Notes: a model not told the origin generated them from the sequence alone. A stretch of 34,754 bases of DNA from a virus (IMGVR_UViG_3300017773_000057:1-34754), one strand, 5' to 3'; positions 1,062 through 21,851 are shown, counted from the stretch's first letter. Numbers and translations are program-made.

Positions 1062-1262
1062 ATGTTATTAACAATAATAAATGAAACAGGACACACAGAA
1101 TTAGAAGTAACCCAAGTAGAGGTAATTGAGCAAATCAACGACCATCCTACACATTGGGTCTTTGTAGACGGTGAATTAACTTCAAGAGAAGATATAGCCG
1201 ATGTTAATTGGGATGCCGTAGAAATGGTTGACCTAACCCCTGCAATAGTTGGCGGCTGCTAA
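1062..1262 (+). CDS. ThiS/MoaD-like ubiquitin-fold modifier ending Gly-Gly-Cys
   Basis: This protein of 66 residues has the length and layout of a ThiS/MoaD/SAMP beta-grasp protein: an N-terminal strand (LLTIINETG), a central helix (VEVIEQIND), a strand and turn (WVFVDGELTSRED) and a last strand VDLTPAIVGGC. The end compares well with the MoaD and ThiS tails, which finish in Gly-Gly. Here one extra Cys follows the Gly pair, so the tail would need trimming before E1 activation. A candidate E1 lies at 7008-7607 and a JAMM protease at 8684-9223 on the same strand. Known relatives act as sulfur carriers (thiamine, molybdopterin, tRNA thiolation) or as protein tags (SAMPs in haloarchaea). The fold is assigned by eye; the role as a protein tag is inference. 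Confidence 0.7.
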   Translation: MLLTIINETGHTELEVTQVEVIEQINDHPTHWVFVDGELTSREDIADVNWDAVEMVDLTPAIVGGC

Positions 1263-1350
1263 AGCCCCACTATTTGTAGGATTTTTAGAAGGGTCTTAGT
1301 GGTAACTCTCTCGGTATTGCTAAGACCTTTCACCCATAGGGTGATTTATA
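1263..1350 (+). promoter_or_regulatory. Intergenic leader with two hairpins, one holding the ribosome-binding site
   Basis: Two inverted repeats are visible. GGTCTTAG (1292-1299) pairs perfectly with CTAAGACC (1320-1327); five further pairs, three of them G-U, can extend the stem inward to leave a 10-base loop. Next, TCACCC (1330-1335) pairs with GGGTGA (1339-1344) around an ATA loop. The second stem contains the GGTGATT Shine-Dalgarno for the ATG at 1351, so folding would hide it. No T-tract follows, so it does not look like a simple terminator. It lies upstream of the short gene preceding the ribonucleotide reductase. A regulatory RNA or translational switch is possible but unproven. Confidence 0.45.
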
Positions 1351-1734
1351 ATGGAGTTAAAAGACGATTTAAATTACGCTGATAAAAGAATAATCAAAAC
1401 ATTGTTTGAGTTGTTTGGATGGAATCTAAAGACATTCAAAGAATATGAAAATCTAGCACTTGTTCGTGCTGATTTTTACCCTGTTGGTTATGTTCTTGCT
1501 ATCAGCAATAAAGCAATAATAATTTGTGAAGGTCAGAGTGTTTTTACATATAAGAATAAAGAATATAATGACTTTGAAGAATTATTAAATACAATAGGCT
1601 CTAGGGCTTATTCCACGTTTCCTAATTGGCAGGTAGGAATAGAGAAAGAGTGGACAATTAGAAAGAATGGTAAATGGGTTGGCTCATTTTCAAATCTTTC
1701 TGATATGCCGTATAGAAAACAGGTAAGGTGTTAA
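1351..1734 (+). CDS. Hypothetical protein upstream of ribonucleotide reductase
   Basis: This protein of 127 residues is soluble, with mixed helix and strand and many aromatic residues. The middle (YPVGYVLAISNKAIIICEG) looks like paired beta strands, and the C-terminal part (WTIRKNGKWVG) like a beta hairpin. I do not recognise a family. The start at ATG 1351 is preceded by GGTGATT at 1340-1346, inside a hairpin. The reductase gene begins 3 bases after the stop, so the two are probably co-transcribed and may be functionally linked, but nothing in the sequence proves this. Confidence 0.75.
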   Translation: MELKDDLNYADKRIIKTLFELFGWNLKTFKEYENLALVRADFYPVGYVLAISNKAIIICEGQSVFTYKNKEYNDFEELLNTIGSRAYSTFPNWQVGIEKEWTIRKNGKWVGSFSNLSDMPYRKQVRC

Positions 1735-1737
1735 AAA

Positions 1738-3594
1738 ATGGAGTTAAGTAATAAAATATTATCAGATATAACAGTATATATGAAGTACGCTAAATGGCGT
1801 GAATTAGATTGGAGAAGAGAAACTTGGGATGAGATTTGCGATAGAAATATGCAAATGCACATTAAGAAATATCCTGAGTTAAAGTCAGACATAGAGATGG
1901 TGTATGCCCTTCATGTAAAGACTAGAAAGATTCTTCCCTCTATGAGGTCATTTCAGTTTGCAGGTAAGTCAGTAGAGATTTCACCTAACCGTATATACAA
2001 TTGTGCATATATGCCTGTTGATGACATTGCCTGTTTTTCAGAAGCAATGTTCTTATTACTTGGTGGAACAGGAGTAGGTTATTCTGTTCAAAGACATCAT
2101 GTAATTAAATTACCAGAAATTAGATTACCTAACCCTAACAGAACAAGAAAGATAGTTATCGAAGATTCTATTATGGGATGGGCTGATGCAATCAAAGATT
2201 TGTTCCGTTCATATACAGGAGAGTTAACACAAACACCTAGGTTCATTTATGATGATATTAGACCTAAAGGTGCAAGACTAAAAACAAGTGGTGGTAAAGC
2301 GCCCGGAGCAGCGCCTTTAAAGAAAGCAATGGTTATTATTGAAGGTATTCTTCAGAATAAGACTAACGGTAGTTATCTTACTCCTTTAGAATGCCATGAT
2401 ATATTATGTCATATTGCTGATGCAGTATTATCTGGCGGTATCAGACGAGCAGCAATGATTAGTTTGTTTAGTGCTGATGATTCATCAATGATTAATTGTA
2501 AAGCAGGTCATTTCTGGGAGACTAACCCTCAGAGAGCAAGAGCAAACAATTCAGCAGTAATTCAAAGACATAAGATAAAGAAAGATTTCTTTCTTGATTT
2601 ATGGAAAAAGATAGAAGAAGGTGGTTCAGGAGAACCCGGAGTTTATTTCACTAATGACAAAGATTGGGGAACAAACCCCTGCTGCGAGATAGGATTAAGA
2701 CCGTATCAATTCTGCAACTTGACTGAATTAAATACTTCTAATATAGAAAGTCAACAAGACTTTGAAGAAAGAGCATTAGCAGCAACCTTCTTAGGAACAT
2801 TACAAGCAGGTTATACTGATTTCCATTACCTTAGAGATATATGGAAAGAAACTACTGAAAGAGATGCTTTACTTGGAGTTTCAATGACAGGTTTAGCAAG
2901 CAATAAAGTATCTAATTTAGATATAGTAGGTGTAGTCCATAAGATGAAAGCATACAATGCTGAGATTGCAGAAAAGATAGGAATAAACCCTGCTGCAAGA
3001 TTAACTTGTGTTAAACCATCAGGAACAGCATCATGTGTATTAGGCACATCGAGTGGTATTCATGCTTGGCATTCTGCTTATTATATTAGAAGAGTGCGAG
3101 TTAAAGACAATGAACCTATTTGTAAATATTTAGTAGACAACCATCCTGAATTAGTTCAGAGAGATGTATTTGATGCAGAAGGTCATGTTATAGAAATACC
3201 TCAGAATGCTCCTGCGGGTGCGCTAACAGTAGATGATGAAGATTCGTTTATGTTCCTTGAAAGAGTAAAACACGCATCAACACATTGGGTTCAACCCGGC
3301 CATTCAGACGGTCAGAATAGCCACAATGTTTCTGCTACTGTTTATATTAAAGAAGAAGATTGGGATGCAGTAGGAGAATGGATGTGGCAGAATAGACATT
3401 TCTATAATGGTTTATCTTGTTTCCCTGAGAATCAAAAATATGCACAGGCTCCATTTGAGAAATGCAGTAAAGAAGTATACGATAAGATGATGCAATCTTT
3501 GAAGAATGTAGATTTAACTCAAATTATTGAACATGATGATTCTTCTGATTTCGGGAATGACCCTGCTTGTGCGGGTGGTGCTTGTGAAATCTAA
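1738..3594 (+). CDS. nrdJ: Adenosylcobalamin-dependent (class II) ribonucleotide reductase
   Basis: The enzyme reduces ribonucleotides to deoxyribonucleotides by radical chemistry that uses vitamin B12, and would supply precursors for viral DNA synthesis. Key residues fit the monomeric Lactobacillus RTPR type: Cys89 (NCAYMP), the loop motif NPCCEIG with Asn313, thiyl-radical Cys315 and Glu317, and Cys326 eleven residues later, the same spacing as C408/C419 in RTPR. A C-terminal Cys611/Cys616 pair (ACAGGACEI) fits the shuttle cysteines that accept electrons from thioredoxin-like donors. Other family blocks are GGTGVGYSVQ and CVKPSGTASCVLGTSSGIH. At 618 residues it is shorter than RTPR (about 739) but retains every catalytic cysteine. 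The residue after the thiyl Cys is Cys rather than the usual Gly. Confidence 0.95.
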   Translation: MELSNKILSDITVYMKYAKWRELDWRRETWDEICDRNMQMHIKKYPELKSDIEMVYALHVKTRKILPSMRSFQFAGKSVEISPNRIYNCAYMPVDDIACFSEAMFLLLGGTGVGYSVQRHHVIKLPEIRLPNPNRTRKIVIEDSIMGWADAIKDLFRSYTGELTQTPRFIYDDIRPKGARLKTSGGKAPGAAPLKKAMVIIEGILQNKTNGSYLTPLECHDILCHIADAVLSGGIRRAAMISLFSADDSSMINCKAGHFWETNPQRARANNSAVIQRHKIKKDFFLDLWKKIEEGGSGEPGVYFTNDKDWGTNPCCEIGLRPYQFCNLTELNTSNIESQQDFEERALAATFLGTLQAGYTDFHYLRDIWKETTERDALLGVSMTGLASNKVSNLDIVGVVHKMKAYNAEIAEKIGINPAARLTCVKPSGTASCVLGTSSGIHAWHSAYYIRRVRVKDNEPICKYLVDNHPELVQRDVFDAEGHVIEIPQNAPAGALTVDDEDSFMFLERVKHASTHWVQPGHSDGQNSHNVSATVYIKEEDWDAVGEWMWQNRHFYNGLSCFPENQKYAQAPFEKCSKEVYDKMMQSLKNVDLTQIIEHDDSSDFGNDPACAGGACEI

Positions 3595-3925
3595 ATATCC
3601 GATAACAAGTATTAAAGAATTAGAAATGATAAAGGAAGATTTGATAGCAGTTTGTTCTACTATCGAAACTGTCCTACCTACATTATCTTCTAGATATCAA
3701 GGAAGAAGTTATTCCTATGTAGATAAAAGAACAGCCTTGCTCGCTGTTAATCGAGCAATAGAGGACACTGTTAAAGGTGAACTTGACGTTACAAATCTCT
3801 TACGTTATTTGCGTAGACTTTTTATAGTAAGTGGAAAGGTTACAAATGACGAAGAGTTTGATAAGTTTTTAGTTGAGATGTATCAACTAGCCAAATATAA
3901 AGAAGTGAATAAAGATGAAATGTAA
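3584..3925 (+). CDS. Hypothetical helical protein, GTG start inside reductase end
   Basis: I place the start at GTG 3584, preceded by GGTGGT (3575-3580) and overlapping the last codons of the reductase. The longer reading from ATG 3527 would add a hydrophobic stretch that merely shadows the reductase C-terminus. The resulting protein of 113 residues is mostly helical: an N-terminal helix (SIKELEMIKEDLIAVCSTI), an Arg- and Tyr-rich centre, and two C-terminal helices. It is a compact helical-bundle type without recognised motifs. The tight coupling hints at co-regulation with nucleotide supply. Function is unknown. Confidence 0.6.
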   Translation: MKSKYPITSIKELEMIKEDLIAVCSTIETVLPTLSSRYQGRSYSYVDKRTALLAVNRAIEDTVKGELDVTNLLRYLRRLFIVSGKVTNDEEFDKFLVEMYQLAKYKEVNKDEM

Positions 3926-4346
3926 ATGTGGTAATGAAAAGTTTATGCTAGAATGGGGTAAATTGAAATGTGCAGAATGTGGCACTAGACAATATATACG
4001 ATATTCAGCAGAAGAACATAAAATAATGAAGAACGAAAAACACTATTTCTGGGCAGTATTAACGCCTAAGTTTATAGAAGCAAGAGACAAGCACTTTCCT
4101 GAGATTGAGGATGATGTAATTATAAATATGTGTAAAGACATAGAAAAATATTACAAGGGCAAATGGCCTAAAGTGCATTGTAAAACTACTGCAAGTAAGT
4201 GGAGAGGTAAACATATCTATTGGAGATATAAGTTTAATCCTCATAAAAAACGTGCAGAAGTAGTTATGAGTAATATAACAAATAGTGATAGAATACAAGA
4301 TAGAAGAAAAGAAGAAGTTAAGTTTGTAACGGTGGATTTTAAATGA
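3915..4346 (+). CDS. N-terminal zinc-ribbon protein
   Basis: This protein of 143 residues starts with a zinc ribbon: Cys3/Cys5 (MKCKCGNEK) pairs with Cys19/Cys22 (KCAECGTR), like the N-terminal ribbons of transcription and processing factors. The rest is basic with many aromatic residues (KHYFWAVLTPKFIEARDKHF; KWRGKHIYWRYKF), which suggests nucleic-acid binding. It overlaps its upstream neighbour by 11 bases, and its stop overlaps the next start (ATGA). I do not recognise the C-terminal part. A DNA- or RNA-binding regulator is plausible. Confidence 0.75.
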   Translation: MKCKCGNEKFMLEWGKLKCAECGTRQYIRYSAEEHKIMKNEKHYFWAVLTPKFIEARDKHFPEIEDDVIINMCKDIEKYYKGKWPKVHCKTTASKWRGKHIYWRYKFNPHKKRAEVVMSNITNSDRIQDRRKEEVKFVTVDFK

Positions 4347-4798
4347 ATGAAATGATAATATATAAAGAAAGTAGTAAAAGTAAATTGATAGCAGCATATA
4401 GACAGTATTTAAGAGATGAATTGAATATTAAAATCGAAGAAGAAAATGCTCGCAATAATAGTAAAAAGAGATTAGTAAATAAATATACTAATCTAAAAAG
4501 ACCTGAAATAGATAGTAATCCTATATCTTGGAATAAGTTTAGAAGATTACCTAAATCAGCAATTGTAGTGCATTTGTTTATGGAAGGTTGTAATCCTGAT
4601 TATGTATCTAATTTTGTTATGGAAAAGGAGTCTGCTGCTAAGGATGTAAAAGGTGCTATATTCTGTTTCCATTCTAAAGGTAAAGATAGTAAAAAGGGAT
4701 TCCATTGGTGTAATTCTAAATGTTGTGAGTCATATAAACATCAAACTTATACACGCTTTTTTACTAAAGGGGTGAAGATAAATGACTCTTCCGTATGA
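4343..4798 (+). CDS. Basic protein with C-terminal Cys/His cluster
   Basis: This protein of 151 residues has a Lys/Arg/Asn-rich N-terminal half. The segment PKSAIVVHLFMEGCNPDYVS resembles a helix-turn-helix of the kind that specifies a DNA-binding element. The C-terminal Cys/His cluster (IFCFHSKG, FHWCNSKCCESYKHQ) could bind zinc. GGTGG lies 7 bases before the ATG at 4343. It sits between another zinc-ribbon gene and a large unknown gene. A DNA-binding role is inferred only from composition and motif layout. Confidence 0.65.
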   Translation: MNEMIIYKESSKSKLIAAYRQYLRDELNIKIEEENARNNSKKRLVNKYTNLKRPEIDSNPISWNKFRRLPKSAIVVHLFMEGCNPDYVSNFVMEKESAAKDVKGAIFCFHSKGKDSKKGFHWCNSKCCESYKHQTYTRFFTKGVKINDSSV

Positions 4799-6104
4799 AT
4801 ATAACATAGAGTTTGTAATAAGACAGGTTGATGATAGTGGTAATACACACACCACTAAAACTAGGATTAAATCATCTTATGATATACCACAAGCACAGAA
4901 TTACTCAATGGAAGGACATCAACGTGTTCATCTTAAACTAGATGCTATCGGAAAGAAAAAAGGAGACCCTTTGATTATATCAATGGCTTCTCAAATAAGA
5001 AAGTTTTTTGGTTGGGGTACTAGAAGTAATTATGCATATGCTTCTGCTCCTGATATATTCAAAATACAGATTCATTTTGAAAATGGTGCTATGATGTTCA
5101 TTGAAAAGAAATCACCGTATTACTATTTGATGGGTAATCGTCTCACTAAAAAGAATGTAATGATGCCATTGGCTAGAACAATATTCCATTCGTGCTTTGA
5201 GAAAGATTCTCTTAAGTTGACTGAATATATGTTTAAGATGATAGCATTACCTGAAAATGTTCAGTATGTTCTAGAAAATAGAACACCTTATTGGTTTTTT
5301 GATACAGGAGAACCTGATGAATGGGGTCAAGTACATAGAACAAAAATTGAGGTCAGACTTAATACGAAAATGATTGCCACTCAAAAGGCTGCATTAGAAA
5401 TATCAGATGGTGTATGGTGTCCAATTGATATTGATGACCTTGATAAGTTTGTTAACTATTATTATCATAATCATACTAGAGGTAAGAAATGGGCGTATAA
5501 ATCTCCTAACAAGATTTGGGAAATGTTAGTAGGTACTGCTCCAACAGATGCTCAATCACATCTTATGTTAGAGTTTCTAAGACAGAACAGAACTGATAAG
5601 ATGGTTGAAGATAGAGCAAAGGAATTAATGAAAAGTCTAACTGTTAAATATCCTGATAGAATTAAAATATTAGAAGTACCTGCCAAAGAAGAAGGCAAGA
5701 CAGCAGAAATTATGATAATTAAAGGTAAATTGATGGATTGGATTATTGTAGAGCAACCTTATAAAACTGCAACTCAAAAAGTTAAAACTTATTCCTTTGT
5801 AAGTAAGGAATGTTTAAGCCATGAAATTAGTGAACCTGATGTACTTGAAGGTAGATGTAATTTCAAACAATTTGGTGCGCGTATAGGAATGGTAAAAGGG
5901 CCAATTTGTATTGATAACATCCATACTAATTCTAGTGTTGGAGACCAATATGCTGCTAGAGCATTAGCATTATTGAATGATAAAATTACTGTTGATTTAG
6001 TATATACTATCAAAAAATATGTACCTGTAGTTTGTTATTCTGGTGAAGTAGAATCTAGACTTCCTGATAGTTTAGAAGGTATAGATTGGAATGGGGTATT
6101 GTAA
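4782..6104 (+). CDS. Large hypothetical protein
   Basis: This soluble protein of 440 residues has mixed alpha/beta character, no obvious signal peptide or membrane segment, and no P-loop. Recognisable stretches such as WCPIDIDDLDKFVNYY and SYAYASAPDIFKIQIHFENG-like strands (about residues 75-105) do not match a family I can name. The start has a good Shine-Dalgarno (AGGGGTGAAG) and overlaps the previous gene by 17 bases; the stop overlaps the TFB start. Its place just before the TFB and E1-like genes makes it a candidate partner of either system. I cannot see an E2-type active-site motif with confidence. Confidence 0.75.
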   Translation: MTLPYEYNIEFVIRQVDDSGNTHTTKTRIKSSYDIPQAQNYSMEGHQRVHLKLDAIGKKKGDPLIISMASQIRKFFGWGTRSNYAYASAPDIFKIQIHFENGAMMFIEKKSPYYYLMGNRLTKKNVMMPLARTIFHSCFEKDSLKLTEYMFKMIALPENVQYVLENRTPYWFFDTGEPDEWGQVHRTKIEVRLNTKMIATQKAALEISDGVWCPIDIDDLDKFVNYYYHNHTRGKKWAYKSPNKIWEMLVGTAPTDAQSHLMLEFLRQNRTDKMVEDRAKELMKSLTVKYPDRIKILEVPAKEEGKTAEIMIIKGKLMDWIIVEQPYKTATQKVKTYSFVSKECLSHEISEPDVLEGRCNFKQFGARIGMVKGPICIDNIHTNSSVGDQYAARALALLNDKITVDLVYTIKKYVPVVCYSGEVESRLPDSLEGIDWNGVL

Positions 6105-7015
6105 TGCAATGTATGGTGTGTAAAAGCCATAAAAATTATATTGATGATAGATTAGGAGAAAAGGTTTGTGTTGATTGTGGATATGTAATGGTATCTAATA
6201 TATCAGAAGAAACTATTTCTCCTAATCTTCCTAACGATGAGTATAGATTGGGTGATAGAGGTAGTCTAGGTTCTCATATGTCTTTGGTTGGTAATCAATC
6301 TTTGATTAGAAAGTTGAAGAGAACACAAGATGTATTTTCTAAAAAACTAGACTCTAACTTAGTTAAAGGTCAAATGGAATGCAATATGATTTTAAGTCCA
6401 TGGCTTCCAAATAATAATCTTAAGGATAGAGTTCATTCATATTACAAGAGATTCTACTCAGATAGATATACTTGGAGATATACTATCTCAGTTAGAGCAA
6501 CAGCATTAGTATTCTTAGTTTTGAGAGAAAATGGTATTCCTATATCTATTTCTCAATTGTCTAAAGATAACAATGAAGATAAGTTTAGAGTATCAAAAGC
6601 AGTCAGGTACTTTGCTAGACAAATAAACAAACCTTGGTTATTGCATCAAGTGTCTGTTGATAGTTGGGCTGATAAAGTAGCACAGGATTTGTTTAGTAAC
6701 AATAAATTAATTGATGAATCAAGTTTTAGAAACGACTTAAGAGTTGTAACACAATATGTAAGTCAGATAATATCTGATAGAGGATTGTATTTCTCTAAAG
6801 GACACATGGCTTCATGCGTGTGGATAACCTGTTTGTTAAGAACAACAGGTTCATGGCCTGAGTTTACTCAAGCCGAGATTGCTAATAGTTGTAAATGTGG
6901 AACATTAACAATTAGAAACAATAATAATAGCATATATAATATGTTAGCAGTAAACAAAAAAATGCTTAAAGCATTAACCGTAAACAATTTTGTAGCAGGT
7001 GTAAGATATGAATAA
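6104..7015 (+). CDS. tfb: TFIIB-like transcription initiation factor (TFB)
   Basis: This 303-residue protein has the archaeal TFB layout. An N-terminal zinc ribbon uses Cys3, Cys6, Cys22 and Cys25. A B-reader-like segment follows (YRLGDRGSLG; compare the DRG of cellular TFBs), then two helical repeats consistent with cyclin folds (about 85-190 and 200-300). TFB bridges TBP on the TATA box and RNA polymerase, so a viral copy could redirect host polymerase to viral promoters. I chose ATG 6104, which gives the normal ribbon position, over an ATG 18 bases upstream; the stop of the previous gene overlaps it (TAATG). The cyclin domains are divergent, so DNA specificity may differ from the host factor. 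Confidence 0.88.
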   Translation: MQCMVCKSHKNYIDDRLGEKVCVDCGYVMVSNISEETISPNLPNDEYRLGDRGSLGSHMSLVGNQSLIRKLKRTQDVFSKKLDSNLVKGQMECNMILSPWLPNNNLKDRVHSYYKRFYSDRYTWRYTISVRATALVFLVLRENGIPISISQLSKDNNEDKFRVSKAVRYFARQINKPWLLHQVSVDSWADKVAQDLFSNNKLIDESSFRNDLRVVTQYVSQIISDRGLYFSKGHMASCVWITCLLRTTGSWPEFTQAEIANSCKCGTLTIRNNNNSIYNMLAVNKKMLKALTVNNFVAGVRYE

Positions 7016-7607
7016 AAAAGAAGAAAAAAGAAAGATATTAATAATAGGCGTAGGTGGAATAGGGAGTTACTTGACTCCTTTATTACATAAAACAGGGTTG
7101 TATGATTTACATATTGCCGACCCTGATATTGTTGAAGAAAAGAATCTGTATTATCAGAACTTTAACACAAGTCACTTAGGAAAAAAGAAAGTAAATTGTA
7201 TTGTTGAACATGATGTCTTAGGTTTAAGACACATATATCCAATATTAACTGATAGTCAATTAGAAGGTGGATATGATTTAATAATATGTTGTGCAGATAA
7301 CCTAGACGCAAGACGTTTAGTTTATAGGCAAGGGTTTGGAGATAATGCAAAGACTATGTGGTTGGATTTGAGAGCGCAAGGTAGAAATGGTGCATTGATT
7401 AGTTGTCTTGCAGACCCTAAGTTTTCAGATACTTTCCTAGCAGGTGAAGAGGGTTCGTTTAGTTGTCAAGGTGCATCATTTAATGATACAACTCAGAAAC
7501 AAAACTTACACTTTACTCATGTAGCAATAGCGGGTATTGGAGCGCAATGGATTCAAAGATTCTTCAATGAAGAACAAGTAAAAGATAAAATGGTAATAAA
7601 TATATGA
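7008..7607 (+). CDS. E1-like ThiF/MoeB/UbaA-family adenylyltransferase
   Basis: This 199-residue Rossmann-type protein has the ThiF/E1 signature. GVGGIG (14-19) is the nucleotide-binding loop, ADPDIVEEKNLYYQ (37-50) holds the acidic and Asn residues of the family, and ADNLDARR (96-103) matches the conserved D-N-x-x-x-R region. E1 enzymes adenylate the C-terminal glycine of a ubiquitin-like protein and often pass it to a cysteine; Cys153 (SFSCQG) is the best candidate here. It lacks the usual zinc-binding Cys pairs and is shorter than ThiF or MoeB (about 250), so it is a minimal form. The likely substrate is the GGC-ending protein at 1062-1262. Overlap with the TFB gene suggests coupled expression. 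Confidence 0.88.
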   Translation: MNKKEEKRKILIIGVGGIGSYLTPLLHKTGLYDLHIADPDIVEEKNLYYQNFNTSHLGKKKVNCIVEHDVLGLRHIYPILTDSQLEGGYDLIICCADNLDARRLVYRQGFGDNAKTMWLDLRAQGRNGALISCLADPKFSDTFLAGEEGSFSCQGASFNDTTQKQNLHFTHVAIAGIGAQWIQRFFNEEQVKDKMVINI

Positions 7608-7617
7608 AGGTGATTAA

Positions 7618-8205
7618 ATGAGAGGAAAAACGTGGACAGAAGAAGAAAAAACAACAATGATGAACTTAGCAATGTCAACTAATATGACAACACAAGAAGT
7701 AACAGATATGTTGAATGAAAGATATAATAACAAGAGAACAACTAAATCTGTGGAATCTAAAAAGAATAGAGTCCTAGAAGAATTAGGTGTGATTGATAAG
7801 AAAACAAAAGATGTGAATGTAATGACAAAAATAGAAAACAGAAACTCTAGAAAAGGTTGGACAACAGCAGAGGATAGAGTATTAATAGATGAATGGACAG
7901 CAGAAAAAAGAAAGCAAGAGAAAATTGCCACTAAATTGGGTAGAAGTGTAGGTTCTTGTGCTTCTAGGATTTGGAGAATAAAAAAGAATCCTCAGTATTT
8001 TCATGCTTTATTAGATGGAGCAACTGTAAATCTACATCAGATAGAAATGACAGGAGATATGAGTGTTCGTTCTGAGTATGACTTAACAGATAACACTCTT
8101 TTAGATAGAAGTTATAGATGGCTTAAAACAAGAAAAGAAAGAAAGCAACGCAAAAGAAAAGAAAAAATAGAAAGAAAAATAAATAAACTAAGAGGTAGAT
8201 TATAA
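7618..8205 (+). CDS. Two-domain Myb/SANT-like DNA-binding protein
   Basis: This protein of 195 residues has two Myb/SANT-like helical domains: the first at about 3-50 (KTWTEEEKTTMMNLA), the second at about 80-122 (KGWTTAEDRVLIDEW, followed by IATKLGRSVGSCASRIW). The spaced tryptophans, acidic first helix and basic recognition helix are typical. The C-terminus is strongly basic (RKERKQRKRKEK). A GGTGATT Shine-Dalgarno lies at 7610-7616. It overlaps the next gene, which carries a third Myb-like domain close to the second one, so duplication is likely. A viral DNA-binding regulator or DNA-organising protein is the likely role. Confidence 0.8.
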   Translation: MRGKTWTEEEKTTMMNLAMSTNMTTQEVTDMLNERYNNKRTTKSVESKKNRVLEELGVIDKKTKDVNVMTKIENRNSRKGWTTAEDRVLIDEWTAEKRKQEKIATKLGRSVGSCASRIWRIKKNPQYFHALLDGATVNLHQIEMTGDMSVRSEYDLTDNTLLDRSYRWLKTRKERKQRKRKEKIERKINKLRGRL

Positions 8206-8687
8206 TGGCAAAATGGACAAAAGATGAAGAAGAAGAATTGATACAAGGTTGGCCTGTTAAAGAGCATAGAGACTCAATAGCAGAAGAACTTGGTAGAAGT
8301 AAAGCGGCTTGCGCTGCACGTTATCGCAAGTTGATTAAAGAAACACCTGCAAAAGATTTGACAGGCGATGCTTATGTTGAAAAGATTCGACAGATGAAAG
8401 AAGAAGTAGTTGAAGAAGTTAAAGAAGCAATTACTCCAACAAAAGCGGCACAAGAAATTAGTGAAAAGATAACTGAAATCATAGAACAAAATGAAGCAGA
8501 GTTAGTAGCAACTAATGGTAAACTGAAAGAAGTCAAAGAAGAATTGAAGGAAGAACAAATTAGTAATGTGATTGAAGTAATGCAAGAAAACAAAGTAGAA
8601 CCTACTAGAAAAGGTAGTGGTTTCGCTATAAAACTACTACTGTTAGTAGGTCTTTGTGCTACTGTATATTGGATGTGGATGCAATGA
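8205..8687 (+). CDS. Myb-like domain protein with C-terminal membrane anchor
   Basis: The N-terminal 45 residues form one Myb/SANT-like domain (AKWTKDEEEELIQGW, then AEELGRSKAACAARYRKLIK). A long charged helical segment follows (about 60-130), then a C-terminal hydrophobic stretch of about 20 residues (about 140-159, KLLLLVGLCATVYWMW) that looks like a tail anchor with the N-terminus in the cytoplasm. DNA binding combined with membrane anchoring suggests tethering of viral DNA to the membrane. The gene overlaps its neighbours on both sides (TAATG upstream, ATGA downstream). Motifs are directly visible; the tether role is inference. Confidence 0.78.
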   Translation: MAKWTKDEEEELIQGWPVKEHRDSIAEELGRSKAACAARYRKLIKETPAKDLTGDAYVEKIRQMKEEVVEEVKEAITPTKAAQEISEKITEIIEQNEAELVATNGKLKEVKEELKEEQISNVIEVMQENKVEPTRKGSGFAIKLLLLVGLCATVYWMWMQ

Positions 8688-9223
8688 GTAGTTGTGATTG
8701 CTGTAAAGACGGTGAGTTAGAAGTGGAAACCCCAGATTCAGGACTTGCTAAACATATTATGAATAAAGATATTGAATATGACACACAGGTAGTTATAGAA
8801 GATTGGAAAGAACAGATAGAAGAGTCTTATGGATATGATTGGAATATTAAGTTCCACCAAAAGATTTGGGAAATGTCATTGACTGCTTTTGATAAGCCTA
8901 GAGAGGTTCAAGTGGTTATTGATAAAAACCAAAAACTGTTTATTAGTGTAGGTGATGGTAGTTTTGTTTCCTTTGATGGACAAGAAGGTGCATTGAAAGG
9001 AATGAAGTTGCCTTTGCGTGAATGGATTCATACACATCCGTTTGGACAAGCCTATTTCTCAGGAACAGACTTAAGAACTATTTCTATATGGGAACGTTAT
9101 CTAGACTCAGCAACAGTCATAGGTAAAGACGAGGAAATGAAAATATTCTTTAGAGTTGGTAACAATGGTGAACACTTTCAAGAATACTCTCAATATGCTT
9201 GGGTAGGAGATGAAGAAGAATGA
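8684..9223 (+). CDS. JAMM/MPN+ metalloprotease (deubiquitinase-like)
   Basis: The core motif HTHPFGQAYFSGTD fits the JAMM pattern H-x-H-x7-S-x-x-D exactly, with His116, His118, Ser126 and Asp129 as zinc ligands and catalytic residues. The required upstream glutamate could be Glu63 or Glu74; I cannot decide by eye. Relatives include Rpn11 and archaeal HvJAMM1, which remove ubiquitin-like tags, and Mec+, which trims CysO. The N-terminus has an unusual Cys cluster (MSSCDCC). I chose ATG 8684, which overlaps the stop of the anchored Myb gene, over an ATG 30 bases upstream. Together with the E1-like protein and the GGC-ending modifier it completes a minimal tagging set. The JAMM call is firm; the substrate is inferred. 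Confidence 0.88.
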   Translation: MSSCDCCKDGELEVETPDSGLAKHIMNKDIEYDTQVVIEDWKEQIEESYGYDWNIKFHQKIWEMSLTAFDKPREVQVVIDKNQKLFISVGDGSFVSFDGQEGALKGMKLPLREWIHTHPFGQAYFSGTDLRTISIWERYLDSATVIGKDEEMKIFFRVGNNGEHFQEYSQYAWVGDEEE

Positions 9224-18813: not shown

Positions 18814-20496
18814 ATGATAATAAATGCAGTAGATAAAAATAAAACAATGTTAATTAGATGGAGAGATGAAAACGGTAAGCGTTTGGAATTAGAAGAGAAA
18901 TATTCTGATTTCAGACCTTACTTTTTCATCCCCTTAATTTCAAGAGAAATAACTAATGTTAGTTATACTGAGTTTGGACAAAAGTATAACATTAGATTAG
19001 AATATGATAACGGAGACGATGAACATCCGTTTATGTCTTTAAATAATGGTAGATTAAAGAAAGTAATGTGGAACACAAATAACCCTGCTCATGCTAGGAT
19101 TCTTAGAAAAGAGTGGTCGTTAACCTTTGAAGCAGATGTACCTTTTCATTACAGATATGCAGTTGATAAGATTCATTCCATACAAGAGTATGACATGAGA
19201 AAGTTTTATTGGGATTTAGAATGGCAACAAGGTGGTGAACATGATGGTGCAATTACTTGTATTTCTTATTACGATTCATATGTAGATAATGACAATGCAA
19301 CAATATATTATTGGTTACCTAAAGAAGAAAGTATGTCGATTAAGGTATCTAAGAACCATGTGTTTTTTCTTAGTGAAAAAGAAATGTTAGAATATTTTGT
19401 TTTTACTATAAACGAGACAGACCCCGATATATTGATATCTTGGTTTGGTTCTACTTTCGATTTACCTAAGTTGTTAGAGAGACTTCATGCTAATGATATA
19501 GACCCTAGACGTTTATCTCCTGTTAATGTTGTTAAAGGAGTTTACTTCAATGAAGGTATTAAACTTAGTAAAGCAGCGAAAGGTTACAGTCCAATAGACC
19601 AACCAATAAAAGGTAGAATATGTTTAAACTTAGACTTAGCATTTGAACGTCAATGGAATGATGCACAAAAAGGTACTCTGCCTTCAATGGCATTGGATTA
19701 TGTAGCAGAATTAGTTTTGGGTGAAAAGAAACTTGTTAGTGAAAAGTTTCCTGATAAGAATGATTTCTTTCAAAGAGGATGGCTTGAAGATACTCAAAGA
19801 TATTTAGACTATGCTCAAGTTGACGTTGACCTTCTAGTTAAATTAGATGAAAAGAATCTTATTAGTGAATCTATATTGTCTTTACAACGTTTACTTGTTG
19901 CTCCCTTTGATGCTTGCTTTTATGCTAGTATGATGGGTGGTATTTATTTCATGCGTAATGCTTGGTGGAAAGCCCCTACCGGAGATAAAGAAGGTGAACG
20001 TGTAGAATATGAAGGTGCTATGATTTATGACCCTTTGAATGAGGGAACAAACGGCCTACATCTAGGTGTAGCAGCATTTGACTTTGCACAGTTGTACCCT
20101 TCTATGATGATAGCAAGAAATATTTCTTGGGAAACTAAATCAACTGAGCCGACTGAGTTTGGAGTTAATATTCTATTACCAAGAGATTTATCAGAAGAGT
20201 CTGAGTTTGATTATAGATATTATAAAACAGATAAGTTAGGTTTGTTGCCGAAGGCTGTTTTAGAACTAAAAGGTCTTAGAGATGAGTATAAACAGATGCG
20301 TGATGATTCTACTTCTAAAGAAGATTATGATAAATATCAAACGATGCAAATGGCAGTAAAACGACTAATGGCGAGTTTTTATGGCTTGGTCGGATATCAA
20401 GGCTTTGGTTGGGCTGACGTAGATTTAGCCGCTAGTATTACTGCTAGTGCTAGAGAAGCAATCAGAATATCTGCATTTAAGGTGATGGAATTATGA
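18814..20496 (+). CDS. polB: Family B DNA polymerase, N-terminal piece (exonuclease, motifs A and B)
   Basis: This first part (560 residues) of a split replicative polymerase has proofreading motifs ExoI YWDLEW (Asp134, Glu136), ExoII FGSTFD (Asp216) and ExoIII YAQVD (Tyr333, Asp337). Polymerase motif A is FDFAQLYPS, with catalytic Asp423, and motif B is KRLMASFYG at 516-524. In motif B the usual Asn is Ala. The frame ends in TGA 36 residues after motif B, just before the position of motif C. The rest is encoded at 20940-21851 after three small genes. The two products must associate to form an active site. The start is adjacent to the PCNA stop. Confidence 0.93.
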   Translation: MIINAVDKNKTMLIRWRDENGKRLELEEKYSDFRPYFFIPLISREITNVSYTEFGQKYNIRLEYDNGDDEHPFMSLNNGRLKKVMWNTNNPAHARILRKEWSLTFEADVPFHYRYAVDKIHSIQEYDMRKFYWDLEWQQGGEHDGAITCISYYDSYVDNDNATIYYWLPKEESMSIKVSKNHVFFLSEKEMLEYFVFTINETDPDILISWFGSTFDLPKLLERLHANDIDPRRLSPVNVVKGVYFNEGIKLSKAAKGYSPIDQPIKGRICLNLDLAFERQWNDAQKGTLPSMALDYVAELVLGEKKLVSEKFPDKNDFFQRGWLEDTQRYLDYAQVDVDLLVKLDEKNLISESILSLQRLLVAPFDACFYASMMGGIYFMRNAWWKAPTGDKEGERVEYEGAMIYDPLNEGTNGLHLGVAAFDFAQLYPSMMIARNISWETKSTEPTEFGVNILLPRDLSEESEFDYRYYKTDKLGLLPKAVLELKGLRDEYKQMRDDSTSKEDYDKYQTMQMAVKRLMASFYGLVGYQGFGWADVDLAASITASAREAIRISAFKVMEL

Positions 20497-20603
20497 AGGT
20501 ATCAAAAAAACAATGTAGATGGTGTGGTGCTAAAATACCAAGAAGTCACCATAGAAGTTATAGGTGTAAAAAATGTCCGACAAAAAATAGAGGTGGTAAT
20601 TAA
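20493..20603 (+). CDS. 36-residue zinc-ribbon miniprotein inside the polymerase split
   Basis: It starts at ATG 20493, overlapping the TGA of the polymerase N-piece, and encodes 36 residues. Two CxxC pairs, CRWC and CKKC, are separated by a basic His/Arg-rich stretch (IPRSHHRSYR), a compact nucleic-acid-binding ribbon. It ends in a GGTGGT run that serves as Shine-Dalgarno for the next gene. It is one of three small genes occupying the gap between the two polymerase halves. Its function is unknown. Confidence 0.6.
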   Translation: MKVSKKQCRWCGAKIPRSHHRSYRCKKCPTKNRGGN

Positions 20604-20869
20604 TGGCAGGTCATAATAAGAATACATATCGTATATTAGCAATAAACCAATTTACTGAAAATCTAAAATCAGGTGAGCATTTTCATATTAGAGAATGTGT
20701 TAATTTTCTTAATACTAGAAAAGCATCAGGTACTAATAGGCCACATAAACAAACACAAACTAAGGCTAGTCAATTAGCCATGTTATTAAAAAGAACAGGT
20801 ATGTTCACAAGTTTAGGTAAAGGTGAATGGAGATTTGACGGAGCATCGTTTAAGGGGATAAAAAAATGA
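20603..20869 (+). CDS. Small winged-helix-like protein inside the polymerase split
   Basis: This basic protein of 88 residues has helix NTYRILAINQFTENLKSG, a second helix with HIRECVNFLNTRK, a third (TKASQLAMLLKRTGMFTSLG) and a short wing-like hairpin (GKGEWRFDG). This is the order of a winged helix-turn-helix. It may bind DNA. Its start overlaps the stop of the zinc-ribbon miniprotein, and GGTGGT lies 7 bases upstream. I see no nuclease motif that would mark it as a homing endonuclease. Confidence 0.65.
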   Translation: MAGHNKNTYRILAINQFTENLKSGEHFHIRECVNFLNTRKASGTNRPHKQTQTKASQLAMLLKRTGMFTSLGKGEWRFDGASFKGIKK

Positions 20870-20943
20870 AAGAAAAAATAACAATTAAAATGATATACAT
20901 CATTGGTAAAATATCAATGGTGATTAGGAGATGGTTTAGATGA
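20866..20943 (+). CDS. 25-residue basic hydrophobic peptide
   Basis: A very short frame (ATG 20866) overlaps both neighbours by 4 bases. Its product contains a hydrophobic stretch (MIYIIGKISMVI) followed by RRWFR, like a small membrane or amphipathic peptide. It occupies the only remaining gap before the polymerase C-piece and contains that gene's Shine-Dalgarno (GGTGAT and AGGAG). It may be translated only as coupling leader. Support is limited to the overlaps. Confidence 0.35.
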   Translation: MKEKITIKMIYIIGKISMVIRRWFR

Positions 20944-21851
20944 AAGTGGTTTATGGACATACAGATTCTATATATGTTCAGATGCCTATGGAAAGAGCAG
21001 ATGAAACATTAGCATTATTAAATACTCATGTTAGAAGTAAGTTTCCTAACCTTCTAGGGTTAAAGGAACATCCTGTTAACTTAGAGTTTGAGAAGTATTA
21101 CAAATCTCTAGGCGTAGGTGTTACTAAAAATAGAAATGCAGGATTAATAATATGGAAGGATGGAATAACCTTAGACGCACCTGAGTTTGTTATGACAGGC
21201 TTTTCTGCAAAGAGAGCATCAATAACTGCTTTAGCAAAAGATATCCAATTAGAAGTATTGAAAATGTGGGTATCAGAAAAGTCTGAGTTTGAAATATCTA
21301 CTTGGTTAAATGAGAAATATAACGATGTAATTTCTGGCAAGATAGATATTGATATGTTAATTAATAGGTCTAGATTTAGACAAGAGCGTTTGACATACAA
21401 ATGTATTGATTGTAATAAACAATATACTTGGGAAGAAGTTGTTGAGATGAGACTTAAACAAGATACATCAACAAACTTTTGTAGTAAATGTGGTCAAGAT
21501 TTAGAGTTAGTAACATTAGGTGGTAAGAAACCTTCAATATCTGCGGGTGTAGAAGGATTGATTTGGAATAACCAAATTAATAAAAATAAAATTGATGACT
21601 CATATTATTATATGAGAGTGTTAGACGACCCTACAAGGAGAGCATACATGAACCCGATTACGGGTAAATATAAACGACCTACTTATATTTCAGCAGAAAA
21701 TAAGGAGACGTTAATGGAGCATACTCCCGATTATAAGCACTATGCAAGTTCTGTAATTAAAAAAGCAGAGCCTATATTTAATGCTATGAATTGGAGTACG
21801 CAAGTGATAGAAAGAGATAGAAATCAAAAAGGATTAGGAGAATGGTTTTAA
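20940..21851 (+). CDS. polB: Family B DNA polymerase, C-terminal piece (motif C, thumb)
   Basis: This 303-residue part begins MKVV and reaches motif C at once: YGHTDS at 5-10, where Asp9 is the catalytic residue and the usual first Asp is His. The palm block TKNRNAGLIIWKDG and helix KRASITALAKDIQLEVL follow. The thumb holds an inserted zinc ribbon (Cys155, 158, 181, 184). The last eight residues QKGLGEWF form a perfect PIP box (Q-x-x-L-x-x-W-F) for clamp binding. Added to the N-piece it totals 863 residues, normal for a family B polymerase. Shine-Dalgarno sequences lie at 20919-20930. Confidence 0.92.
   Translation: MKVVYGHTDSIYVQMPMERADETLALLNTHVRSKFPNLLGLKEHPVNLEFEKYYKSLGVGVTKNRNAGLIIWKDGITLDAPEFVMTGFSAKRASITALAKDIQLEVLKMWVSEKSEFEISTWLNEKYNDVISGKIDIDMLINRSRFRQERLTYKCIDCNKQYTWEEVVEMRLKQDTSTNFCSKCGQDLELVTLGGKKPSISAGVEGLIWNNQINKNKIDDSYYYMRVLDDPTRRAYMNPITGKYKRPTYISAENKETLMEHTPDYKHYASSVIKKAEPIFNAMNWSTQVIERDRNQKGLGEWF

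Follow-up and report, generated by a model that had tools for sequence, protein, structure and literature searches.

A putative virus-encoded, E2-less ubiquitin-like tagging module in magroviruses

We found that three genes, encoding a small ubiquitin-like modifier, an E1-like adenylyltransferase and a JAMM protease, are core genes of magroviruses, because they occur together in the same order wherever the contig is long enough. We consider it rather probable that the three proteins form a virus-encoded ubiquitin-like tagging module that works without E2, and that the JAMM protease both matures and recycles the modifier. The gene set suggests that these viruses chemically tag their own proteins or those of the host during infection. 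If this is true, protein tagging belongs to the core functions of viruses that infect archaea, here of viruses whose hosts are among the most abundant archaea of the ocean. The system would also be minimal, with three proteins of 66, 199 and 179 aa open to reconstitution in vitro, and it raises the question of how an Arg-less E1 delivers its modifier to a target without E2. The magrovirus papers PMC10160649, PMC5332604 and PMC5628999 do not mention ThiF, JAB or ubiquitin; an earlier annotation is possible in the first description of magroviruses (Philosof 2017), in Zhou 2023 and in Prabhu 2025.

The stretch of DNA analyzed here (the window) is a virus record of 34.7 kb (34,754 nt; about 33% G+C) from IMG/VR. 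It encodes a split family B polymerase, an RFC small subunit, a PCNA-like protein, an ATP-dependent DNA ligase and a TFB; several names in this group were assigned by inspecting the translations and do not rest on family searches. The structural genes are transcribed opposite to the replication and transcription genes, and neither tRNAs nor Rfam families were found in the window. Judged by its gene content against the published description of magroviruses, the window appears to be a fragment of a magrovirus (order Magrovirales). Since this match rests on gene content and a published description, the host is assigned by analogy, and is thought to belong to the Poseidoniales (Marine Group II), which are among the most abundant archaea of the ocean. 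The nearest named phages of the window polymerase are haloarchaeal tailed viruses, with about 25% identity. This polymerase (18814-21851) is divided into two ORFs, and an 88-aa ORF (20603-20869) lies in between.

The features considered in this study are as follows.

1062..1262, + strand: ubiquitin-like modifier precursor, 66 aa, with a predicted ThiS-like beta-grasp, ending ...AIVGG/C (AF2, Foldseek, Pfam ThiS, hhalign)
1251..1259, + strand: predicted JAMM cleavage site, where a removable Cys follows the Gly-Gly (tail survey; HvJAMM1 precedent for cleavage)
1263..1345, + strand: stable RNA hairpins directly 3' of the modifier gene (folding z-scores, window and relatives)
4782..6104, + strand: conserved 440-aa protein between modifier and E1, a candidate partner (in 42 of 45 loci; invariant Cys376 in GPICIDN)
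6104..7015, + strand: TFB-like transcription factor, directly upstream of E1 and overlapping it (Zn_Ribbon_TF, E 5e-4; position kept in 39 of 45 loci)
7008..7607, + strand: E1-like adenylyltransferase, 199 aa, PRTRC/crAss-type ThiF, predicted catalytic Cys153 (Pfam, hhalign, residue map)
8684..9223, + strand: JAMM/MPN+ metalloprotease, 179 aa, with E74, H116, H118, S126 and D129 (motif, profile, Foldseek)

The modifier, the E1-like protein and the JAMM protease

A first-pass annotation had described the modifier gene as a 66-residue ThiS/MoaD-like ORF ending in VGGC. The ORF is present on the + strand, and its acidic product ends in AIVGGC. Because a Cys follows the Gly-Gly, the double glycine is not at the terminus of the window modifier. 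The AlphaFold2 model of the protein (pLDDT 85) has the order beta-beta-alpha-beta-beta-(alpha)-beta, with the elements E2-7, E10-15, H18-27, E31-35, E38-40, H42-45 and E55-60. The top PDB matches of this model by Foldseek were NEDD8, ubiquitin and Ubl domains (probability 0.98-0.99, E about 5e-3), and the best viral matches were Ub-like proteins of phages and giant viruses. Since the E-values are modest (about 2e-3 to 5e-3), we claim a fold and not a kinship. The same annotation had named the lack of a beta-grasp fold as grounds for rejecting its reading; the models predict that the modifier does have this fold.

The Pfam family matched by most members was ThiS (PF02597), with 10 of 44 members and a best E of 8e-4; the window modifier itself had no match to it, nor did the family match anything in 12 large records. 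Aligned with E. coli ThiS by hhalign, the modifier was in register up to the terminal Gly-Gly (P 0.008). Identity among the relatives was 38-100%. In the first alignment, G10, H11, T12, H28, H31, W32, V63, G64 and G65 were invariant, and one later sequence had IIGG in place of VGG. The invariance of the three His residues (H11, H28 and H31) and of W32 is unusual for ThiS or SAMP; a metal site or a binding face is possible.

Lysine makes up 1.1% of the modifier residues, mostly at positions 2-3, compared with 8.8% in the other window proteins. Such poverty would suit a protein that has to keep its activated C-terminus away from its own lysines. E. coli ThiS, however, also has no lysine, so that this trait cannot tell tagging from sulfur transfer. 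With the patterns used, a search of 84,980 genomes gave no cellular relative of the modifier beyond two contigs of one MAG labelled Altibacter, which we take to be misbinned virus sequence.

The C-terminus was then compared among relatives. The Gly-Gly was kept in all 76 distinct modifier sequences (VGG, once IGG), and 70 of them carried a variable tail of 1-9 residues after it, nearly always 1-2. The tails had no consensus and were of about 30 kinds (Y, C, SL, Q, SC, CY, RF and others); E. coli ThiS and MoaD, in contrast, have no such tail and stop at the GG. Such a C-terminus, in which a few variable residues stand behind a conserved double glycine, has the appearance of a processed precursor. 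In SAMP1 fusions, the cut made by HvJAMM1 falls exactly behind the terminal Gly (PMC4443979), and the tail of the viral modifier suggests that the viral JAMM matures it. As to the tailless modifiers, five genomes could be checked, and all of them had an intact JAMM and an intact E1. Because the JAMM is intact there, it probably does more than mature the modifier, and detaching the modifier from its targets would be an obvious further task. We also considered the encoded GGC as a general mimic of CysO-Cys, and rejected it since Cys is only one among about 30 tails.

The E1-like ORF was found on the + strand with the GVGGIG and ADNLDARR motifs that had been reported for it, and its product matched Pfam ThiF with 62 bits (cut-off 28.1). 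Alignment with E. coli MoeB and ThiF showed that the glycine loop, D38, D40, N46, Q50, K61, D97-N98 and C153 are kept; C153 corresponds to MoeB C187 and ThiF C184, D97 to MoeB D130, and K61 to MoeB K86. Of the features compared for the ThiF/MoeB/E1 superfamily, the viral E1 has the GxGGxG loop, the Asp, the Lys, the Asp-Asn pair and the catalytic Cys. The S[FY]SCQ motif around the catalytic Cys was kept in 93 of 93 sequences. None of these 93 viral E1s had the Arg of NLxRQ (MoeB R73), the position being occupied by Tyr (Tyr49 in the window) or rarely by Asn. The viral E1 also has neither the MoeB-like N-terminal Arg segment nor the zinc CxxC pairs. Because these three elements are missing, standard adenylation is not assured.

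The viral E1 scored 27 bits against the UbaA model NF047750, of which the cut-off is 450. In contrast, its profile matched PRTRC ThiF by hhalign with a probability of 99.5 and an E of 5e-23 over 179 columns; against the PRTRC ThiF model TIGR03736, viral E1s scored 39-58 bits (cut-off 144.75). The E1-like proteins of crAss001 (gp76) and of Virus Rctr197k also lack the Arg, and they adjoin or lie near JAB proteins. Judging from these sequence matches, the nearest kin of the viral E1 that we found appear to be proteins of phage and plasmid cassettes, not archaeal UbaA. In Virus Rctr197k, which comes from a methane-oxidizing enrichment, the JAB protease and the Arg-less E1-like protein are a few genes apart (964-1362 and 4013-4636).

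The JAMM ORF is likewise present on the + strand, and the segment HTHPFGQAYFSGTD is, as had been claimed, an exact HxHx7SxxD motif. E74, H116, H118, S126 and D129 were invariant in 51 relatives, and HxHx7SxxD was kept in 93 of 93 distinct JAMM ORFs. Prok-JAB of Pfam was matched by 49 of the 51 relatives, the window protein itself falling below the cut-off. PDB profile matches included AMSH-LP (1e-4) and an archaeal Rpn11-like protein (3e-3). The best Foldseek matches of the model were mostly JAMM proteins (RadC, BubCD, AMSH, Rpn11), with low TM-scores; for both the JAMM and the modifier, the models matched known folds with modest scores. We examined the C-terminal Glu-Glu-Glu of the JAMM as a conserved peptide and set it aside, as in 37 of 56 cases an ATG shares bases with the stop codon (ATGA) and the run may partly be a translation signal.

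Co-occurrence of the three genes in magroviruses

IMG/VR was searched with each protein separately and with a modifier profile (206 relatives), and 128 loci were scanned with profiles. Co-occurrence in related viral genomes had been proposed as a check of the first reading, and it was borne out: all three genes were present in fixed order and on the same strand in 105 of 128 loci, and the exceptions were at contig ends or in shortened stretches. Because several of the 128 loci share one contig, we took a second, independent sample of 63 contigs picked by their DNA polymerase alone, in two sets seeded at opposite ends of polymerase diversity. E1 was found in 55 of these 63 contigs, the modifier in 45, and the JAMM in 36 of the 37 tested, and the misses were on short or truncated contigs.

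The contigs with missing genes were inspected further. In the eight without E1, no more than 12.3 kb of sequence precedes the polymerase, and in the other contigs checked the distance from E1 to the polymerase downstream of it is 10.6-14.1 kb. In view of this range, three of the E1-less contigs, which reach about 12 kb upstream, are borderline and not proven truncations. Where E1 is present and the modifier is missing, the contig continues for 4.3 kb at most, compared with a usual 2.6-8.3 kb. Among the 128 loci and the 63 polymerase-selected contigs, we found no case in which any of the three genes was missing from a contig clearly spanning the region. Each of 12 large records (68-103 kb) contained exactly one ThiF.

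The three genes are under strong purifying selection, the dN/dS in the pairs computed being at most about 0.2 and mostly 0.03-0.1. The identity matrices of the three proteins correlate at 0.60-0.65. These values are consistent with shared descent and add little on function.

Relation to known systems and proposed action

The known systems used for reference are the type 6 operons described by Iyer et al. (PMC1779556), PRTRC, Bil/Bub, SAMP and lambda TAPI/TAPK. The first-pass annotation had matched the three genes to the minimal archaeal SAMP system. As an analogy this holds: like SAMP/UbaA/HvJAMM1 of Haloferax, the viral set combines a predicted beta-grasp Gly-Gly modifier, one E1 without E2 and a JAMM with the catalytic residues of a desampylase in an archaeal setting. 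As a membership it does not hold, in view of the E1 score (27 against 450 bits), the missing Arg and the tailed precursor. The magrovirus set is moreover viral, its modifier has invariant His and Trp motifs, and its E1 falls about 70 aa short of the 270 positions of the UbaA model and lacks the NLxRQ Arg and the zinc pairs.

The E1 is homologous over its full length to those of the PRTRC cassette (ParB-related, ThiF-related; Iyer type 6d, on plasmids) and of the ThiF/JAB pair gp76/gp77 of crAss001, with which it has the WLD and (P/F)SC active-site motifs in common. These cassettes are also carried by mobile replicons and phages, and the JAB protein, PRTRC A, is similar to the magrovirus JAMM (P 4e-4). 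PRTRC ThiF has the Arg, whereas the crAss and magrovirus E1s do not. The modifier was compared with PRTRC protein C as a possible relative and rejected, there being no profile similarity; a counterpart of the E2-like PRTRC_B was not found either.

ThiS/ThiF and MoaD/MoeB resemble the viral pair in the size, fold and Gly-Gly register of the modifier and in the Cys, Asp and Lys positions of E1. They differ in that the magrovirus set is always accompanied by a JAMM, has no sulfur-pathway neighbors and has a tailed precursor. Ubl, E1 and JAB also stand together in Bil/Bub and other Ub-like operons with which bacteria resist phages, and E1-E2 models were the best defense matches of the magrovirus E1 in PADLOC; however, these operons encode an E2 and serve host defense, whereas the magrovirus set, for which no E2 was found, is carried by a virus. 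Lambda TAPI/TAPK likewise pairs a viral Ubl with a JAB protease, but has no E1 and lies among structural genes. Thus the magrovirus set, with a SAMP-like function as we read it, an E1 of PRTRC/crAss type and a modifier of ThiS type, matches no reference system in all tested features.

From these features we infer the following enzymatic steps, in which direction the modifier is passed on, and its targets, which may be viral or host proteins. The JAMM would remove the tail of 1-2 residues from the 66-aa precursor and expose ...VGG-COOH. E1 would adenylate the terminal glycine with ATP and then capture the modifier on Cys153. The activated, lysine-poor modifier would be handed to target proteins with no E2 in between, in the manner of UbaA and the SAMPs, and the same JAMM would later strip it from them. 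Since the JAMM would also remove the modifier, its persistence in tailless genomes would be explained.

A different possibility is a sulfur relay, in which the modifier is a carrier of ThiS/MoaD type, activated by E1 and thiocarboxylated with host sulfur for tRNA thiolation or another thio-product, while the JAMM trims the precursor or releases the product as Mec does from CysO-Cys. The modifier is indeed ThiS-like, lysine-free carriers are typical of ThiS, the encoded ...GGC end presumably resembles a CysO-cysteine adduct, and archaeal SAMPs serve both protein tagging and sulfur transfer. Nevertheless, the tails are of many kinds (Y, SL, Q, RF and others), a terminal Cys being just one of them, the JAMM is retained in tailless genomes, and rhodanese, ATP_bind_3 (TtuA/NcsA) and PALP (CysM) were not found in 16 large magrovirus records, where absence by Pfam does not mean absence of the activity. 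JAB has, in addition, never been found in thiamine and molybdenum operons (Iyer 2006, PMC1779556). We therefore regard the sulfur relay as rather unlikely and favor protein conjugation. No E2 (UQ_con, PF00179) was found in 12 large records either, a point that also counts against the tagging module. With no E2 and none of the three sulfur-pathway families found, direct transfer as in UbaA is favored over a full sulfur pathway of the virus itself; both an E2 and the sulfur-donor functions could nevertheless come from host enzymes.

It is more doubtful still that the viral modifier and E1 mainly disturb the SAMP/UbaA system of the host, for example by competition, with the viral JAMM removing the tags of the host. 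The lack of the canonical ATP-contacting Arg in E1 would suit such a decoy, and JAMM proteases could act on host conjugates. Against it, the other catalytic positions of E1, including the Cys, are all kept under purifying selection, and, apart from the two presumed misbinned contigs, no cellular relative of the modifier was found among the genomes searched. A role in virion morphogenesis without conjugation of the E1 type, with the JAMM processing the modifier as an assembly factor as for lambda TAPI and its JAB/NlpC partner TAPK, seems to us very improbable. Ubl and JAB protease are paired in lambda and T1-like phages (PMC1779556), but E1 is always present in magrovirus loci, and the genes lie next to RNR, TFB and DNA ligase in the replication/transcription arm, apart from the structural genes with their opposite orientation.

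More tentatively than for the tagging module itself, we speculate that abundant tailed viruses of archaea, as an entire order, depend on a complete conjugation cycle of their own (precursor processing, an Arg-less E1, E2-free transfer and JAMM recycling), with a dedicated modifier found in no cellular genome, and that this cycle remodels proteins during infection.

Neighboring genes and the 3' hairpin

A TFB, a Myb-like protein and a lipoprotein had been noted beside the three genes, and all are present: the TFB has a zinc ribbon (E 5e-4), the Myb-like match (E 1e-3) is under the Pfam cut-off, and the lipoprotein has a LAGC lipobox. The 440-aa protein had no match in Pfam, PDB or phages. We considered it as an E2, since its GxICxD with an invariant Cys recalls E2 sites. 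We do not claim it as such, because profile comparison by hhalign gave no match to PRTRC_B (E2-like), and Pfam and PDB gave none. A 241-aa protein (29-754) occurs in 43 of 45 loci and has a very conserved SxVWRWNHPDNPKAQ motif, with no clear family.

The hairpin after the stop codon of the modifier gene had a z-score of -3.07 in the window, and the mean in relatives was -2.73 (n=43) as compared to about -1.0 at two control positions. In most relatives its position and stability are conserved while its sequence is unrelated. The hairpin may terminate or stabilize the modifier transcript, possibly as a 3' end that sets the dosage of the modifier apart from that of the downstream genes.
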